The translations under genes and the position numbers were made by a program. The notes under the pieces are model-generated. The model searched no databases and had not been told where the DNA came from. It saw only the letters and a list, made by a program, of their open reading frames with translations. A DNA stretch of 64,000 nucleotides, taken from positions 55,575 to 119,574 of the forward strand of contig CAMTAF010000001.1 of NCBI GenBank assembly GCA_947066955.1, in the 5' to 3' direction. Below, piece after piece: positions 1,965-52,593 of the stretch (the stretch's first letter is position 1; each line of letters opens with the position of its first letter). Source of the stretch: an uncultured Hungatella sp. Lineage in GTDB: Bacteria > Bacillota > Clostridia > Lachnospirales > Lachnospiraceae.

Positions 1965-2650
1965 TATTCAGACACACCCCCGCGCTCTTCTCCTGTCCTC
2001 AGAAAATCCGGTCGTCGGAAGGCATCCTCAAAACGCTCCGCGTCACCGTCCAGGCTCTCCACATAATGCACCGCTGAATTTTCCCAATATTTCCTGTAAA
2101 CCCTGTCCTTCTGCCCGTCAAGATTCAGCTGATACAGGCGAAACGTAACCAATATGTTCTTAGGCTGCCATTGCTCCTCATAAGAATAACAATATTTCAT
2201 GCCCAGCCGCTTCATCACCCCTCCGCTCCCAGGGTTCTTCACGTCATGAGTGGCAGTAACATAGGGAACCCCTTCTCTCCTAAGCTGTTCCACCACCGCC
2301 CCGGCCGCCTCCGTGGCAATGCCCCTGTGCCAAAACTCCCGGCAAAGCCCATAGCCCAAGTCATAGCTGTCATTCAAGGTGAGATTCACATACCCAATGG
2401 GGCAATCCGTCCCTCTCAGACAGATTCCATAGTAAGATTCTGTTTCATAATAAACCCCCGCGCCCCCGGCGGCAGCTCCTTTAAGCCTCTTCTCATAAAA
2501 ATCCCCCGCCTCCTCCATGGTCCTCACAGGAAACCAGGGAAGAAACCGGTTCACCTCCAAGTCTCCGAAAATCTTGTACACAGCCTCCAAATCCTGCTCC
2601 AGAAACGGCCTTAAGACCAGCCGTTTCGTCTCAAGCTTTGACATGCTCAT
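1964..2650 (-). CDS. GNAT N-acetyltransferase (RimJ/RimL type)
   Basis: LETKRLVLRPFLEQDLEAVYKIF ... GYGLCREFWHRGIATEA. Confidence 0.85.
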   Translation of the reverse strand: MSMSKLETKRLVLRPFLEQDLEAVYKIFGDLEVNRFLPWFPVRTMEEAGDFYEKRLKGAAAGGAGVYYETESYYGICLRGTDCPIGYVNLTLNDSYDLGYGLCREFWHRGIATEAAGAVVEQLRREGVPYVTATHDVKNPGSGGVMKRLGMKYCYSYEEQWQPKNILVTFRLYQLNLDGQKDRVYRKYWENSAVHYVESLDGDAERFEDAFRRPDFLRTGEERGGVSE

Positions 2651-4269: not shown

Positions 4270-4291
4270 TTCTAGGTATCGGCACGCGCCG
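4270..4291 (-). repeat. short hairpin repeat, copy D (end fragment)
   Basis: TTCTAGGTATCGGCACGCGCCG on plus strand, matching one end of copies A and C; supplies the last codons of the VOC gene. Confidence 0.55.
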
Positions 4292-26911: not shown

Positions 26912-27005
26912 TTCCTCCTTTGTCCGTATATGGGCACACAGCGCGAAGCGCCGCCTGCCAGGTCGTGGGAAGGCATCCTGAAAATGCTGCGCATTTGCCT
27001 TCCTC
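26912..27005 (-). repeat. short hairpin repeat, copy B (88-nt unit)
   Basis: Direct repeats TTCCTC at 26912-26917 and 27000-27005; shares AGGCAAATGCGCAGCATTTTCAGGATGCCTTCC with copy A. Confidence 0.75.
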
Positions 27006-29245: not shown

Positions 29246-29474
29246 AAATCTTCCTCCTCATATATGGGCACGCCCCAACTCTGTGTGAACTCCGGGGCTG
29301 TAACTGTAGTCTATCACTCCGTTAAATTAATGTCAATCCATACAATCAAATCTTAAGAAAAAATCCCCCTTAAAAAATACATTTTATGGTATAATAAAAA
29401 GTAACGCGGATTTTGGGTTCCCGTCCAAATCTTTAAAACCCGGAATAAACCATGCAAAAAAGGACTTTAATTTT

Positions 29475-43257: not shown

Positions 43258-44642
43258 TTATAAAAACAAGGACAGAACCAGGTTGAATGCCGTGGCCGAC
43301 AGCACGCTTATGGGAACCGCCACAAACAGGAGCCTGGGGAACATGGCATTTCTCTCCTCCTTTTTCTAAGGAATCGGCACGCGCCGCTTTGCGGCACCTG
43401 CCAAGACGTCGGAAGGCATCCTGAAAATGCTGCGCATTTGCCTTCCTCCTCTGTGCTGCAGGATCCCAGCACCAGGCTGCCTCCTGAGGAGAAGGGGGAT
43501 ATAGCCGAGCTCTGAGCCCCCACCACGATACAGGTGTACAGCACCAGAGGACTGAGCCCCGTGGTCGCCGCCAGCCCCGGCACCAGGGGGTACAGGGCCG
43601 GGCACACCACTCCCAGGGTGCTGGAAAAGAAGCTCATGACAGCCCCGATGAGACTGAAAGCCATGGGCACGATCCATGCAGGCAGGCTGCTTCCCGCCCA
43701 GGCTGACAGCATCTCGATGGTCCCGGCCTCAATGGCCACATTGATCAGCATCCCCACGCCGCAGATCATGATGATGGTGTTCCAGGGCACTTTCCCGATC
43801 ACGTCCTTCTGGGGCGCCAGATCACAAAACAGCGCTATGACCGAAAACACAACAGCCACCAGACCCACGTCGATCTTTCCGTTGATAAAAGTGATCAGCT
43901 CTGCCCCTGGCAAAATGATGTGCAGGATGGGGAAGATCAGCACCACCGCGATCATAGCCAGCATCAGGTACAGATTGATCTTCTGTTTGTCCGTAAATGC
44001 CTCCGGCTTCTCAAAGGTCATATCCTTGCCAATATTCCGGTTGTTCTTGGGTATGTACCGGAAAGCCGCGATCAGCAGAAGGGAAAATACCACGCTGGCC
44101 GCAAAGATCACTGCGGAATAGGAAAATGACACTTCTGTCATGCCTCCCTCGTCCATGAGGCCCCGAAAGATGATGCCGCTTCCGCTGGTCATAAAGTTGG
44201 CCCCGGAGAGGGCTCCGCAGTTGATCGCCACGGCCCCTGTCAGCTGATCCATCTTGGCCTCCTTGCAGATCAGGATGGTGATAGGCGCCATAAATGCCAT
44301 AACCGTAAAAAATCCAGCCCCCAGGGCCGCGATCCCCGCGCTCGCTAAGTACAGGGCAAAGGGAAGCAGCCCGGGAAACTTCCGGCATGCGTAGAGAAGA
44401 TACCTGGCAGTCTTCTCCAGGGTCCCGTTGACCAGGGCAAAATTATAAAACAGAGATACCGAAAAGAAGACAAACATGGTGCTCACAGGCCACCCGGCGA
44501 TCACGTCCCTGGTCCTCATCCCCAGGGCGAAGCAGCCGATGAGATAGGCAAACATCATGGCGAAAAATCCTGTGTTGAACTTTGTCTTGTAGCCGATTGC
44601 CACAGAGACGGCGATGGAGCCGATGATCAGTATACTCAGCAT
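43258..44642 (-). pseudogene. SLC13/ArsB-like (MatC-type) permease disrupted near the C-terminus by repeat copy A
   Basis: Excising 89 nt restores ...GSCSTEEERNAMFPRLLFVAVPISVLSATAFNLVLSLFL*; current ORF ends at 43308 with an aberrant tail. Confidence 0.85.
43355..43450 (-). repeat. short hairpin repeat, copy A (82-nt element + 7-nt direct repeats)
   Basis: TCCTCCT at 43355-43361 and 43444-43450; minus-strand element AGGCAAATGCGCAGCATTTTCAGGATGCCTTCCGACGTCTTGGCAGGTGCCGCAAAGCGGCGCGTGCCGATTCCTTAGAAAA. Confidence 0.85.
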
Positions 44643-44653
44643 AAGCGTTCCTC

Positions 44654-45514
44654 CTACTCAATTCCAAGCAGGCCTGCCTGGATGGTGTGGGTCATGTGGT
44701 AAAGCTGGCTCTCCGTGACGCCGTGGTCTGCCAGATATTGCATGTACTCCTCCAGGGCTGCCTCCCAGTAGGGATTCTCCACCTGGCCCCCGTCAGTGCA
44801 CACCATCACATGCTCATAGCCGCAGGCCTCGATGGCCTCTAAGTTCATCTCCAGATTGCTCTTGTACTTCCCTCCCCCCAAGGGCTGGGCGTAGCAGTGC
44901 TCTAAGATCACGTCATAATCTCTCACGATTCTCACCTGGTCCTCCAGGCTCATGCCCACCAGCCACCACTCCGGATGAGTCACCACGATCTTCTTCACCC
45001 CCGCGTCCCTGGCCGCCTCGGTCACAATAAAACACTCCTCAGGCGACACATGGGCTGTGCCCAGAACCGCGTCATAATCCTTGATGAGCCGGAACACGTC
45101 AAGCAGCTCCGGAACCACCTTCCCGTCTCTCACCACCTCCACGCAGTTGGCCGCGCTTGCCTTGTTCTTTTCCAGATGATTTCTGGCAGACTGGGTGGGC
45201 AGCCAGATCACCTTGGCCCCCAGCTTCAGACCGCTCTCCACTGCCGCCGGGTTGATCCCTCCCATCTGCCGGTTCAGGGTCACTCCCCCGAACATAGTAA
45301 AATCATTGTCCCCTCCATGTACCCTCTCATTGTACCGGTTGCACAGATACGCCCGGTCCACCGTGGTCCCCTGATGGGTTTTGATGACAATCGCCCTGGC
45401 CCCCACCCGGATAGCTGCCTCTGTCAGTTCAAAATCATCATAAGCCCGGTGACGGATATCCGGGTTGGAGTGGACATGCATGTCGATCACTCCCTTTAAA
45501 GAAACCTTGCCCAT
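44654..45514 (-). CDS. DUF6282-type amidohydrolase-like protein
   Basis: GVIDMHVHSNPDIRHRAYDDFELTEAA; HPEWW; VCTDGGQ. Confidence 0.8.
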   Translation of the reverse strand: MGKVSLKGVIDMHVHSNPDIRHRAYDDFELTEAAIRVGARAIVIKTHQGTTVDRAYLCNRYNERVHGGDNDFTMFGGVTLNRQMGGINPAAVESGLKLGAKVIWLPTQSARNHLEKNKASAANCVEVVRDGKVVPELLDVFRLIKDYDAVLGTAHVSPEECFIVTEAARDAGVKKIVVTHPEWWLVGMSLEDQVRIVRDYDVILEHCYAQPLGGGKYKSNLEMNLEAIEACGYEHVMVCTDGGQVENPYWEAALEEYMQYLADHGVTESQLYHMTHTIQAGLLGIE

Positions 45515-45521
45515 AAAAAAT

Positions 45522-45590
45522 ACCTCCTTCTTAAAGTATCGGCACGCGCCGCTTCGCGTCACCTGCCAGGTCGTCGGATGCCTAACCTCC
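45522..45590 (-). repeat. short hairpin repeat, copy C (63-nt unit, internally shortened)
   Basis: ACCTCC at 45522-45527 and 45585-45590; shares TATCGGCACGCGCCGCTT.GCG..ACCTGCCA with copy A. Confidence 0.75.
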
Positions 45591-45742: not shown

Positions 45743-45912
45743 GTAAGGCAGGCAACGGCGTGTGTCTGTTTAAGCGTTGAAGCATAACAGCGTACCGGAA
45801 AGCCTTGTTATGCGGAGCTTTCGAGAGGGGTTGTGCAATGAAACCTCAAACCGGAGTAGGTGTAAACTGAAAGAAAATGCTCAGGGCCGCTTTGTTTCTG
45901 CAAAGCGGCTCT
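45743..45912 (+). ncRNA. candidate structured 5' leader/attenuator
   Basis: GCATAACA/TGTTATGC stem (45782-45789/45806-45813) and AGGGCCGCTTTG/CAAAGCGGCTCT stem (~45883-45912) between the promoter and the downstream ATG at 45981. Confidence 0.45.
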
Positions 45913-47562: not shown

Positions 47563-50500
47563 TCACTGTATCCATGCTCCATCTATACCTACCATATAAT
47601 TATCTGGAGTCATTGTATTGGCAAGCATAGAACCATCAGAATTTAAATAATACCATTTTTCGCCAACTTGAATCCAACCTGTAGCCATTGTACCATTTTC
47701 ATTCATATAGTACCATATTTCTGCTACTTTTATCCATCCAACTGCCATAGCACCAGAATCAGGTATAAAATAATACCATTGTTTATCCAACAGCAACCAG
47801 CCTTCTACCATATACCCATCGCTATTAAAACGATAGATTATCCCATTAATTTGTGCCCATTGGTTTTTGGGATAACTTTTATCTGCCATCTCTAGCCACC
47901 AGCCAATATCATCTTTTAACCAAATACCCGAAAGGACTGGGACAGAATCAAATGAACCACCTTTTGCAAAATTCTCTCCTGGTCCACTATTACCTTTGGT
48001 TCCGCTTCCTCCTCCGGTTCCTTTAGTTCCACCTCCCCCTCCGGTTCCATTTCCTCCTTCGGTTCCGTTTCCTCCTCCGGTTCCATTTCCTCCTTCGGTT
48101 CCACTTCCTCCTCCGGTTCCATTTCCTCCTTCGGTTCCACTTCCCCCTCCGGTTCCATTTCCTCCTTCGGTTCCACTTCCTCCTTCAGTTCCACTTCCTC
48201 CTCCGGTTCCATTTCCTCCTTCAGTTCCGCTTCCCCCTCCGGTTCCATTTCCTCCTTCAGTTCCATTTCCTCCTTCAGTTCCACTTCCCCCTCCGATTCC
48301 ATTTCCTCCTTCAGTTCCGCTTCCTCCTTCAGTTCCATTTTCTCCCCCAGTTCCACTTTCCTCCTCAGAATCTGCATATTTCTGTTTTAAAACTACCTTG
48401 TTTACTTCAATATCAACAGCATCACCAGGATATTCTGCTGGATAACTATAAAATATTAAATTTCCACTATCTGTATCTACCCCATCTGTAACATACCATA
48501 CTACCTCACCATCTTTCACGATAGGCTGACAATCTGAAAGATTCCCCTCAAAAGTTCCTATGTCATCATTATTTAATCGGTTTCCATAGCCGTCAAAAAA
48601 CAAAATCTTTACATCCCCATTTGTCTCTGTATATCGAGTATAAAAAGTTTCATATAAAGACGCACTCTTATCAAAAGCTTGTTCCTCCCACATTAAGGCA
48701 AATAAATCCTCTGAGATTTTAACTAACTGTGGAGTCGATGCACTATAAGTACTGCCTTCCTCATAATCCGAAATCTGAATATATTTTACATTAGCTAAGT
48801 TATCTTTATCCACTACTGAGAGAAATACATTCCTTGTATGACTATCAGAAAAATTATCCTGATTAATAGTACTTCCTGCTATCAGATAACTGCTATCAGA
48901 AAATTCTAATCCTCCTACAGTAACTCCTGTATAATTATAATTGTAACCATTATTACCATACTTATAAATCTCATCATCACCTTCAGAAATAGGAAGAATC
49001 ATAACATTATCTGATTCCTCCGACATATCATCCGCTTCATACACTACCAAAACTACTGCCCTTGGATATGCGTCACCATGATCTACTGTAATTACTTTGC
49101 CGCCGTCAACCTTAACAAACTGATTAAAAGAATGCGAAACATATCCTGTTGAGATATTAGAAATACCATACCTTATATACGATGGTATCATGCTCTCCTT
49201 ATTAACAACTATTGTCAAATTAGCCTGATGGTTTACTCCGTCTCCACTTTTGTACATTCTGTGTCCTGTGTGTACGTATAAATAAGTATCATTTTCATCT
49301 ATACGGAGACTGCTTGAAGAAAATGGTAGTTCTGTATTAAGACCGTATAGTTCAACAGAATCTAAACGATTCATTTCTCTTCCGTATTTAACAATGCGGA
49401 TCACCTCCTTTTCATCACTCTCTTCTTCATTTCGCTGACCAAATACAACATAAAAGTTCTCTTTTCCTACATAAAAACCACCAAACAAGGATAATTCCAT
49501 AGGAATATTCCAGCTTTTAAGAAACTCTTTCTCAGAATTATACTGCTCAATTATAACCCCATCCTCCCTAGATACATATTCTATTCGGTAAAGATTTCCA
49601 TCTTCCCCTCCATATAAGTACGAGGTTACTATATCTTTCGTATTTCCCCAATAATTCTGATCATGTTGATTTCTTGAAGCTATAAAATTATTATTCTCTG
49701 TCAAGTTCAAAGGTGTCTCTGAAATGTCATCTATTCTTTTATAAGTATATTTTGTCTCTTTAGGGAATGCTCTTTGTCCCAAAAAATTAACTGTTTTAGG
49801 AATGACCACAGAGTTAATCGCTGTATTATAAAAAGCATACCCTGCAATCTCACGGAGACCATCCGACATCATCACCGTTTCAAGTTTACTGCACCCTTCA
49901 AATGCCCCCCTTTCTATACTCTCCACACTCTCCGGTATCCTTATATTGGTCAGGCTCACGCAGCCATAAAAAGCCCACTCCCCTATCTTTGTCACGCTCT
50001 CTGCTATCTCCAACTCAGACAGATTTTCACACTCGTAAAATGCGTATGCTCCTACACTCGTTACTCCCTCCTCTATCACTACTTTCTTTATCGTTTCTCT
50101 GGACCCATACCATGGCATTGACCAACTATACCAGTCAGACATCTCTCCTTCCCCTCGGATTGTCAGCGTCCCCTCATTATCCAGTTCCCATTTCATGTTA
50201 TCTCCACACAGGCCCTTTTCTATCGTAACCACCCCCGACAGACCATCACACCCTTCAAATGCACCTCTTCCTATACTTATCACACTCTCCGGTATCCTTA
50301 TATTGGTCAGGCTTACGCAGCCATAAAAAGCCCACTCCCCTATCTTTGTCACGCTCTCTGCTATCTCCAACTCAGACAGATTTTCACACTCGTAAAATGC
50401 GTATGCTCCTACACTCGTTACTCCCTCCTCTATCACTACTTTCTTTATCGTTTCTCTGGACCCATACCATGGCATTGACCAACTATACCAGTCAGACATC

Positions 50501-52593
50501 TCTCCTTCCCCTCGGATTGTCAGCGTCCCCTTATTATCCAGTTCCCACTTCAAGTTATCTCCACACAGGCCCTTTTCTATCGTAACCACTCCTGACAGAC
50601 CATCGCACCCTTCAAATGCACCTCTTCCTATACTTACCACACTCTCCGGTATCCTTATATTGGTCAGGCTCACGCAGCCATAAAAAGCCCACTCCCCTAT
50701 CTTTGTCACGCTCTCTGCTATCTCCAACTCAGACAGATTTTCACACTCGTAAAATGCGTATGCTCCTACACTCGTTACTCCCTCCTCTATCACTACTTTC
50801 TTTATCATTTCTCTGGATCCATACCATGGCATTGACCAACTGTTCCAGTCAGGCATCTCTCCTTCCCCTCGGATTGTCAGCGTCCCCTCATTATCCAGTT
50901 CCCACTTCATGTTATCTCCACACAGGCCCTTTTCTATCGTAACCACTCCCGCCAGACCATCACACCCTTCAAACGCTCCTCTTTCTATACTCTCCACACT
51001 CTCTGGTATCCTTATATTGGTCAGGCCCACGCAACCACAGAAGGCCCATCTCCCTATCTTTGTCACACTTTCTGCTATCTCTAATTCGGACAAATTTTCA
51101 CACTCGTAAAATGCATATGCTCCTACACTCGTTATTCCTTTCTCTATCACTACTTTCTTTATATTTTCCTTGGACAGATACCACGGTGCTGACTGACTAC
51201 TCTCGTCAGGCATTATTCCTTCCCCACGGATTATAAGTGTGCCCTTATTATCCAATTCCCACTTTAGTTTATCATTATAATATGTACCTTTTTCCACTAC
51301 AACTGTCCCCGTCAGATTGATACATCCTTCAAATGCTTTTGCACCTATATAGGTTACACTGTCTGGTATCTCTATATCAGATAAACTGACACATTTATAG
51401 AATGCCTGGATTCCTATACTCGTTACGCTTTCCGGTATATCGACACTAGTCAGATTTTCGCAACCAAAGAATGCATATGATCTTATATTTGTTACTCCTT
51501 CTTCTATTACAACCTTTTTTATACGATCATTAAAAGAATACCATGGACTATACCACTCCTGAGTCTCTGGCATTGCTCCTTCTCCCCAGATTATCAATAC
51601 ACCTTCATCATTCATCTCCCATTTCAAATTTCCGTAATCGGCTGCTTGCACAATTGTCTCTTCTGTTACAGAAATTCTGTTTTCTACTGAAAAATAATTA
51701 TCTTCTTTCCCTAAAGCATCACAAGTATTAATAAAATAGACTGTTCCTCCTTCTTGTACTGTAAATGTCATCTTATATTCTTCCCCAACTTTTGCTATGT
51801 CTGGGGAAATCATATTCATATTTCCATTATCCCTTTTGTGGATCGCCATTATCGGTTTTTCCCCATCAAGGCTCTCCTCTGGGACTGTCATTGTGACAGT
51901 AATATCCTTCCTTTTTCCTACAATCTCAAGTGTCATTGCCCATATATTTTCTTCATCAATTTTTAAATCAATTTTGTCCAGTTCTTCTACCACCAATTTT
52001 TGAATATCTTTTTCTACCTCAATTTCATTGGCAACCAAATATCTATCCTCCAGGCCAATGGGAGTTAACTGATAAGGATCAACAATATTGCCACTAACCT
52101 GTTTTGGATTATACCACTCTCCTTTTAGCACAACATCACTATAAATTTCTTTCTCATCGCTGACCAATATCGGTATATCCCCGCCATAGTAATACCATCC
52201 AGCAAACCTTAGATCGTCAATATCATCCTCGTTATCATTTGCAATATTGGCAATAGATTTCCACACAGGCTTTTGATGATTCCTCTCTAACTCTTCTTCA
52301 CCTAACAATAAACTGGTAAAACTGCCTCGGCTATTTTCCTTTAAATTATAAAATGTCTGCACCCATCTTGTACGAGTTGCATCAGACTCTGTAGAATCTG
52401 AGTCTTTGTCAGAAATATCGACAAAATATCCACCTTTACCTGTCTGAAAGGTCACTTTTATTGGTTTTTCCTCTGTAGATGGTATTCCAATATCCACCGC
52501 TGCCATTGACGTAGTATTAGTCGTCAACATCACAGCCGCTAAAACCAATGCTGCCCTAGCTTTTAATTTTCGTCCCATACAATATTCCTCCAA
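47563..52593 (-). CDS. giant BspA-like leucine-rich-repeat surface protein with Gly-rich linker and C-terminal cell-wall-binding (choline-binding-like) repeats
   Basis: signal peptide; repeated AFYGCVSLTNIRIPESVxSIGRGAFEGC; WYYLNSDGSM / GWIQVGEKWYY repeats. Confidence 0.93.
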   Translation of the reverse strand: MEEYCMGRKLKARAALVLAAVMLTTNTTSMAAVDIGIPSTEEKPIKVTFQTGKGGYFVDISDKDSDSTESDATRTRWVQTFYNLKENSRGSFTSLLLGEEELERNHQKPVWKSIANIANDNEDDIDDLRFAGWYYYGGDIPILVSDEKEIYSDVVLKGEWYNPKQVSGNIVDPYQLTPIGLEDRYLVANEIEVEKDIQKLVVEELDKIDLKIDEENIWAMTLEIVGKRKDITVTMTVPEESLDGEKPIMAIHKRDNGNMNMISPDIAKVGEEYKMTFTVQEGGTVYFINTCDALGKEDNYFSVENRISVTEETIVQAADYGNLKWEMNDEGVLIIWGEGAMPETQEWYSPWYSFNDRIKKVVIEEGVTNIRSYAFFGCENLTSVDIPESVTSIGIQAFYKCVSLSDIEIPDSVTYIGAKAFEGCINLTGTVVVEKGTYYNDKLKWELDNKGTLIIRGEGIMPDESSQSAPWYLSKENIKKVVIEKGITSVGAYAFYECENLSELEIAESVTKIGRWAFCGCVGLTNIRIPESVESIERGAFEGCDGLAGVVTIEKGLCGDNMKWELDNEGTLTIRGEGEMPDWNSWSMPWYGSREMIKKVVIEEGVTSVGAYAFYECENLSELEIAESVTKIGEWAFYGCVSLTNIRIPESVVSIGRGAFEGCDGLSGVVTIEKGLCGDNLKWELDNKGTLTIRGEGEMSDWYSWSMPWYGSRETIKKVVIEEGVTSVGAYAFYECENLSELEIAESVTKIGEWAFYGCVSLTNIRIPESVISIGRGAFEGCDGLSGVVTIEKGLCGDNMKWELDNEGTLTIRGEGEMSDWYSWSMPWYGSRETIKKVVIEEGVTSVGAYAFYECENLSELEIAESVTKIGEWAFYGCVSLTNIRIPESVESIERGAFEGCSKLETVMMSDGLREIAGYAFYNTAINSVVIPKTVNFLGQRAFPKETKYTYKRIDDISETPLNLTENNNFIASRNQHDQNYWGNTKDIVTSYLYGGEDGNLYRIEYVSREDGVIIEQYNSEKEFLKSWNIPMELSLFGGFYVGKENFYVVFGQRNEEESDEKEVIRIVKYGREMNRLDSVELYGLNTELPFSSSSLRIDENDTYLYVHTGHRMYKSGDGVNHQANLTIVVNKESMIPSYIRYGISNISTGYVSHSFNQFVKVDGGKVITVDHGDAYPRAVVLVVYEADDMSEESDNVMILPISEGDDEIYKYGNNGYNYNYTGVTVGGLEFSDSSYLIAGSTINQDNFSDSHTRNVFLSVVDKDNLANVKYIQISDYEEGSTYSASTPQLVKISEDLFALMWEEQAFDKSASLYETFYTRYTETNGDVKILFFDGYGNRLNNDDIGTFEGNLSDCQPIVKDGEVVWYVTDGVDTDSGNLIFYSYPAEYPGDAVDIEVNKVVLKQKYADSEEESGTGGENGTEGGSGTEGGNGIGGGSGTEGGNGTEGGNGTGGGSGTEGGNGTGGGSGTEGGSGTEGGNGTGGGSGTEGGNGTGGGSGTEGGNGTGGGNGTEGGNGTGGGGGTKGTGGGSGTKGNSGPGENFAKGGSFDSVPVLSGIWLKDDIGWWLEMADKSYPKNQWAQINGIIYRFNSDGYMVEGWLLLDKQWYYFIPDSGAMAVGWIKVAEIWYYMNENGTMATGWIQVGEKWYYLNSDGSMLANTMTPDNYMVGIDGAWIQ
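47990..48360. repeat. low-complexity tandem repeat encoding (G-T/N/S-E/G-G-G)n linker
   Basis: period-18 units such as ggttccatttcctccttc / ggttccacttcctcctcc. Confidence 0.9.
49902..50972. repeat. three near-identical 357-bp tandem units within the LRR gene
   Basis: units starting at 49902, 50259, 50616; shadow ORFs of 108 aa at exactly 357-bp spacing are nearly identical. Confidence 0.92.

Follow-up and report, generated by a model that had tools for sequence, protein, structure and literature searches.

The region at 45522-45590 of the analysed DNA, a window of 64,000 nucleotides from an uncultured Hungatella species, raises the question of how a short sequence came to end in the ribosome-binding site of one gene while carrying the same motif at its other end. 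The minus strand from 45590 to 45522 reads GGAGGT-TAGGCATCCGACGACCTGGCAGGTGACGCGAAGCGGCGCGTGCCGATACTTTAAGAA-GGAGGT, with the two GGAGGT strings at 45590-45585 and 45527-45522, and it lies a few bases 5′ of the ATG (45514) of a DUF6282 gene. A sequence-only reading of this DNA had quoted the strand exactly, and had regarded the region as a shortened copy (copy C) of a repeat that targets and regenerates ribosome-binding sites. Our analysis indicates, with a probability of about 0.85, that copy C is a member of the GA-cis family from which hairpin 1 was deleted, and that GA-cis is a non-autonomous mobile repeat in this Lachnospiraceae genome (G000). The features at the locus are as follows.

45522-45590, minus strand: copy C, a GA-cis element without hairpin 1 (sequence; nhmmer; empty syntenic site in the related genome G007)
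45590-45586 and 45527-45523, minus strand: left and right GGAGG flanks of copy C, the right one being the Shine-Dalgarno (SD) sequence of the DUF6282 gene
45541-45567, minus strand: hairpin 2 of copy C, GGCAGGTGACGCGAAGCGGCGCGTGCC (fold; counterpart in 98 full copies)
44654-45514, minus strand: DUF6282 gene (PF19799), 3′ of copy C, with its ATG at 45514-45512

The family of copy C is Rfam RF02987, "GA-cis", an element of ∼88 nt with two hairpins; it is therefore an already-known sequence family and not, as had been proposed, an undescribed one. A search of Rfam with copy C itself gave no match at E ≤ 1, because the truncated copy is too short, and it is assigned to the family through the profile, which nhmmer aligned to it over model positions 35-90 (E 6.6e-12 in the window). 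Compared with the family consensus, most of hairpin 1 is gone from copy C and hairpin 2 is kept, which bears out the earlier remark that the distal hairpin was absent. When the 69-nt copy C was used as a query, the own genome yielded 56 significant matches, a result far beyond chance. RF02987 also scored over the cut-off at other copies in this genome, including copy B in the window (43366-43453; 38.6 bits versus a gathering score of 34.7, E 1.4e-4). The drum RNA family (RF02958) matches strongly, with 92.5 bits, at 45772-45885 on the plus strand, adjoining copy C and divergent from the DUF6282 gene.

The remaining copies and remnants in the window, with the gene that one of them interrupts, are listed below.

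26915-27005, minus strand: copy A, full-length, 5′ of a HAD-type hydrolase gene and ending in its SD (GGAGG 26918-26914) (nhmmer E 4.3e-19; fold)
43357-43449, minus strand: copy B, full-length GA-cis element inside the coding sequence of a transporter (Rfam; nhmmer E 8.8e-25; reading frame restored by dropping 89 nt)
43449-43445 and 43360-43356, minus strand: GGAGG flanks of copy B
43260-44642, minus strand: transporter gene with copy B inserted towards its 3′ end (the reading frame ...GSCSTEEE/RNAMFPRLL... spans the junction; 3′ limit approximate)
4275-4290, minus strand: remnant of the right end, GGCGCGTGCCGATACC, located between a VOC-type gene and the start codon that follows it (identical to the right end at 16/16 bases)
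29253-29278, minus strand: weak likeness to the right end, possibly a remnant, at the SD of the following gene (by eye only)
2010-2043, minus strand: partial match to hairpin 1 and the linker, within apparent coding sequence (nhmmer E 2e-6)

Copies A, B and C are indeed related, as the sequence-only reading had maintained: a repeat search of the window placed them in repeat families D4 and D5, with 84-87% identity between the closer pairs. Of the two end fragments it had pointed out, the one near 4270-4291 is a true right-end match, while the one near 29253-29278 shows a weak likeness that nhmmer missed in the window. The match at 2010-2043 may be a remnant or a coincidence. Two other kinds of repeat were observed in the window. 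An 18-nt tandem repeat at 47947-48432 comprises 19 overlapping copies in register, its length being in frame for a repetitive protein segment, and five large direct repeats at 49891-51621, spaced 357-360 nt apart and 62-97% alike, probably represent a multi-repeat protein gene.

Each GA-cis unit has the order AGGAGG-hairpin 1-CCGACGA-linker-hairpin 2-GATAC-A-rich spacer, and the family consensus is GGAGGAAGGCAAA[C/T]GCGNAGC[G/A]TTTTTAGGATGCCTTCCGACGACCTGGCAGGTGACGCGAAGCGGCGCGTGCCGATACC-AAAA-GGAGG. The orientation relative to AGGAGG was identical for all copies. Arrays in the own genome consisted of one unit in 55 cases, two units in 27 and three units in 3, with up to four units in relatives; adjacent units lie head-to-tail and have one GGAGG in common. 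When 98 full copies from the own genome were aligned, standard pairs accounted for 99.1% of the cells in both hairpins. Moreover, 65 cells carried double changes, compared with maxima of 10 after sliding the 3′ partner and of 27 across 200 shuffles; one hairpin pair, for example, is C-G in 53 copies, T-A in 44 and broken in 1. Both hairpins are supported by compensatory changes. The two-hairpin fold was kept in nearly all copies from other genera, with unrelated arm sequences. Of 18 copies taken from other genera, 15 had an ATG 7-9 nt past the left SD, inside hairpin 1, and one more had a GTG. Inspection led us to reject this ATG as the start of a conserved peptide: the frame varies, extending from four codons to open through the unit.

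The own genome is a draft of 4.22 Mb in 240 contigs that is 92% complete, with several copies at contig ends. Here, the core TTCCGACGANNTGGCAGGT occurred 310 times with up to two mismatches (159 forward, 151 reverse), versus a single occurrence of the reversed-pattern control, and the copy density was ∼74 per Mb. A covariance model returned 126 GA-cis matches among 150 scored candidates, about 120 of them listed over the cut-off. Copies examined in detail are a sample reached through similarity searches, and the copy statistics given here are search counts or refer to sampled stretches. In the genus, GA-cis was found in 16 of 26 genomes, ranging from 0 to more than 100 copies, and the other GA-cis-bearing congeners carried 1 to about 10 copies each. 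In the family, it was found in 17 of 250 sampled genomes from 16 genera, several of them close to the scoring limit, and none of 14 control genomes had it. The covariance-model check suggested by the sequence-only reading led from three loci to more than 120 scored own-genome copies, 17 family genomes and compensatory changes, the opposite of the outcome that would have refuted its repeat family. Among named records, the exact core was found in metagenome-assembled genomes labelled uncultured Hungatella, Lachnospiraceae and the like. No copies were found in phages or plasmids by distant blastn with the G000-type consensus, and viral contigs gave no match to one exact core.

Comparison of occupied and empty sites between species of one genus suggests that GA-cis copies are insertions. 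At eight of eight loci, the element was present in G000 and absent from every relative with a readable syntenic junction. Copy B interrupts the transporter gene at an internal GAGGAGGAG and leaves it frameshifted. When the flanks were joined at GGAGG, dropping 89 nt, the resulting sequence ...SPFSSGGSLVLGSCSTEEERNAMFPRLLFVAVPISVLSATAFNLVLSLFL* was colinear and ungapped with the intact G007 homologue ...SPFSSGGSLILGSCGNEEERNTLFNRLMFVAVPSSVAVNAVYNLIISMIL. Likewise, the syntenic DUF6282 gene of G007 has no copy C upstream. Empty sites were also found for the L022 array in seven relatives, for L006 in three and for L027 in five; at the L006 site, G007 reads CAAAATAAGGAGGAGTGCAGTATGGG and G000 reads CAAACTGAGGAGG-[two units]-GAGGAGGAAAAATTATGGG. 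Nine relatives lack arrays 1 and 2 of L061 at the corresponding syntenic site, and two lack array 3; the right junctions of all three arrays differed from the relatives by more than a clean insertion. One array locus is common to G021, G009, G014 and G012 (L087, L088, L089, L095, L096), with unit numbers that differ and reach four. Since this locus is common to several related species, some copies persist and not all turn over.

Other elements were observed in the same stretches. At the site that holds GA-cis array 1 in G000, G001 carries a different tandem hairpin repeat with a unit of ∼41 nt, CCCAAACGAAGCGAAGCGGAGTTTGGGTTTCCCGCCGCTAC (L131, about 1630-1790, G001:C72). A further short repeat of ∼92 nt (L061 7989-8091), which is not GA-cis by Rfam, occurs in G001, G002, G008 and G024, in some cases in tandem. 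L061 98-168 on the minus strand matched Group II intron D1D4 (RF01998) with 38 bits, just over the cut-off.

The junctions of 54 intact arrays revealed what is duplicated upon occupation. The base after the left GGAGG was always A, and the base after the right GGAGG was A in 43. The true shared end is (A)GGAGG, so that AGGAGG(A) stands at both ends. The six-base GGAGGT duplication proposed for copy C does not hold: the T of its left GGAGGT stems from the element's own TTTTTAGG, brought there by the hairpin deletion, and the shared sixth base is coincidental. A target-site duplication beyond AGGAGG(A), GGAGGT included, was rejected on the basis of the 54 arrays, in which nothing outside was duplicated. 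Left and right flank bases outside AGGAGG were uncorrelated, with only position -6 reaching p=0.048 among the eight positions upstream of GGAGG. Similarity to the left end of the element ran on for 9-17 nt (GGAGGAAGGCAAATG) at 19 of 69 right junctions, versus 0 of 37 native SDs, and these junctions include cases where the start codon of the gene coincides with the left-end ATG of the element. Such continued junctions could arise if the intermediate exceeded a single unit in length, or if templates were switched at SD-ATG microhomology.

Placement at gene starts was scored by two rules. Under the strict rule, an open reading frame had to comprise 150 codons or more and begin no further than 25 nt from the element end; 67 of 80 sampled arrays were at a gene start, whereas this applied to 17 of 98 AGGAGG sites in the window (Fisher p=9e-20). 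The controls were required to have a start at 3-15 nt, and the distance windows for arrays and controls are comparable rather than identical. With a looser rule, the counts were 73 of 81 and 47 of 98, respectively. The left GGAGG often overlaps the stop codon of the upstream gene (TGAGGAGG, TAGGAGG), an overlap to be expected if this is where the native SD was. The claim that the repeat targets and regenerates SD sites is therefore largely right as far as placement, insertion and the SD-like motif at both ends of each copy of this dispersed family are concerned. It does not extend to the choice between targeting and tolerance: SD sites may be targeted, or insertion may take place at any AGGAGG and then be tolerated; copy B, for example, occupies an SD-like string within coding sequence. 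The genes downstream of GA-cis are unrelated, since 60 downstream proteins span 95 Pfam families, the commonest of which is found in four proteins. The left SD lies partly within hairpin 1 and the right SD within the A-rich spacer; in predicted folds, their mean unpaired values were 0.39 and 0.49, respectively. Consistent sequestration of the SD by the hairpins was looked for in these folds and not found. Most insertions look tolerable rather than regulatory, though there may be a regulatory effect on some downstream genes.

We propose that GA-cis inserts in a fixed orientation at AGGAGG strings, mostly SD sites. After insertion, AGGAGG would flank both ends and the downstream gene would keep an SD at normal spacing. 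Further units would be added head-to-tail, which is possible because the element supplies AGGAGG at its right end. The hairpins would be recognised by the mobilising activity, and insertions at SDs would survive as nearly neutral. The candidate movers are an enzyme or a host repair or template-switch process; no transposase or autonomous partner was found for GA-cis. That mobility of some kind is involved we regard as highly probable. Much more tentatively, GA-cis may represent a class of mobile elements that lands on the translation-initiation region: its left end, an SD with a hairpin-held start codon, would enter SD(-ATG) strings and supply a replacement SD, the mover being neither Y1 nor a classical DDE transposase.

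Conceivably, there is no dedicated mobiliser at all, and microhomology at AGGAGG(...ATG) strings drives the spread of copies, through template switching or recombination in the course of replication or repair. The continued right junctions, which go beyond any of the native SDs, are in line with this possibility, as are the partial next units and internally deleted units (L016, L048, copy C) and the higher identity between array mates (0.90) than between other pairs (0.82). However, ∼310 copies in one species, set against the scarcity or absence of the element in other members of its genus, point to an active burst, and the insertion of copy B is exact, which leaves this explanation a doubtful one. 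It is unlikely that GA-cis belongs to the REP type and owes its mobility to a Y1 (HUH) tyrosine transposase, either RAYT or IS200/IS605. REP and IS200/605 elements are moved by Y1 transposases, and the hairpins beside a short fixed target string, the fixed orientation and the lack of duplication beyond that string resemble their logic. Yet, PF01797 had no match in G000 despite the highest GA-cis count of the genus, and it was absent from 9 of the 13 GA-cis-bearing genomes checked; a gene could be missed in the incomplete draft of G000, but this is not likely in nine genomes, and we therefore rejected an association with Y1 or RAYT. Similarly improbable is the view of GA-cis as a true cis-regulatory RNA, akin to a riboswitch or leader, which would govern translation of the next gene and would have multiplied because many genes use one signal: although the copies are always sense-oriented directly 5′ of start codons, with two covarying hairpins and, in most other-genus copies, the hairpin-1 ATG, the downstream genes have no common theme or metabolic regulon, their orthologues lack the element in every relative examined at the eight loci, copy B sits in a coding sequence and frameshifts it, the right SD is about as free as the left, and the upstream reading frame from the hairpin-1 ATG varies in length.

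The mobile-repeat reading can be set beside three known systems. Like REP/RAYT elements and IS200/IS605-derived PATEs, GA-cis is short and hairpin-forming, is present in hundreds of copies and has a fixed short sequence beside a hairpin. Unlike REP/RAYT, it has no associated Y1, its units are direct and head-to-tail instead of inverted pairs, and it sits in SDs. MITEs and the modular intergenic repeats BOX, RUP, ERIC and bcr1 are non-autonomous sequences of ∼100 nt that are intergenic and have conserved RNA-level structure, and GA-cis shares all of these traits. In contrast to MITEs, which derive from DDE transposons, its ends are AGGAGG in direct orientation without terminal inverted repeats, and there is no target-site duplication of variable host sequence. 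The third system is Rfam GA-cis itself, which was reportedly first described by Weinberg et al. in 2017 as a candidate structured RNA and presented as a cis-regulatory candidate. The element described here agrees with it in the consensus, both hairpins, the AGGAGG start, the CCGACGA linker and the ATAC end. The family is tabulated in the Rfam 15 paper among those with a consensus structure improved by R-scape (PMC11701678). A mobile reading of GA-cis was not found in our literature search of open-access papers. While the label implies a cis-regulatory RNA, the element in this genome appears as a mobile repeat of high copy number, which has empty sites, forms tandem arrays and has inserted into a coding sequence. 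If this is true, the Rfam family would stand for a mobile repeat where a gene-control RNA had been supposed, and a bacterial element would be seen to avoid harm by landing on ribosome-binding sites and restoring them. Since ∼74 copies per Mb touch many gene 5′ ends in one species, they offer a natural experiment on hairpins inserted between SD and upstream gene and on operon translation. They also advise caution, as a conserved covarying structure 5′ of genes need not be a regulator.
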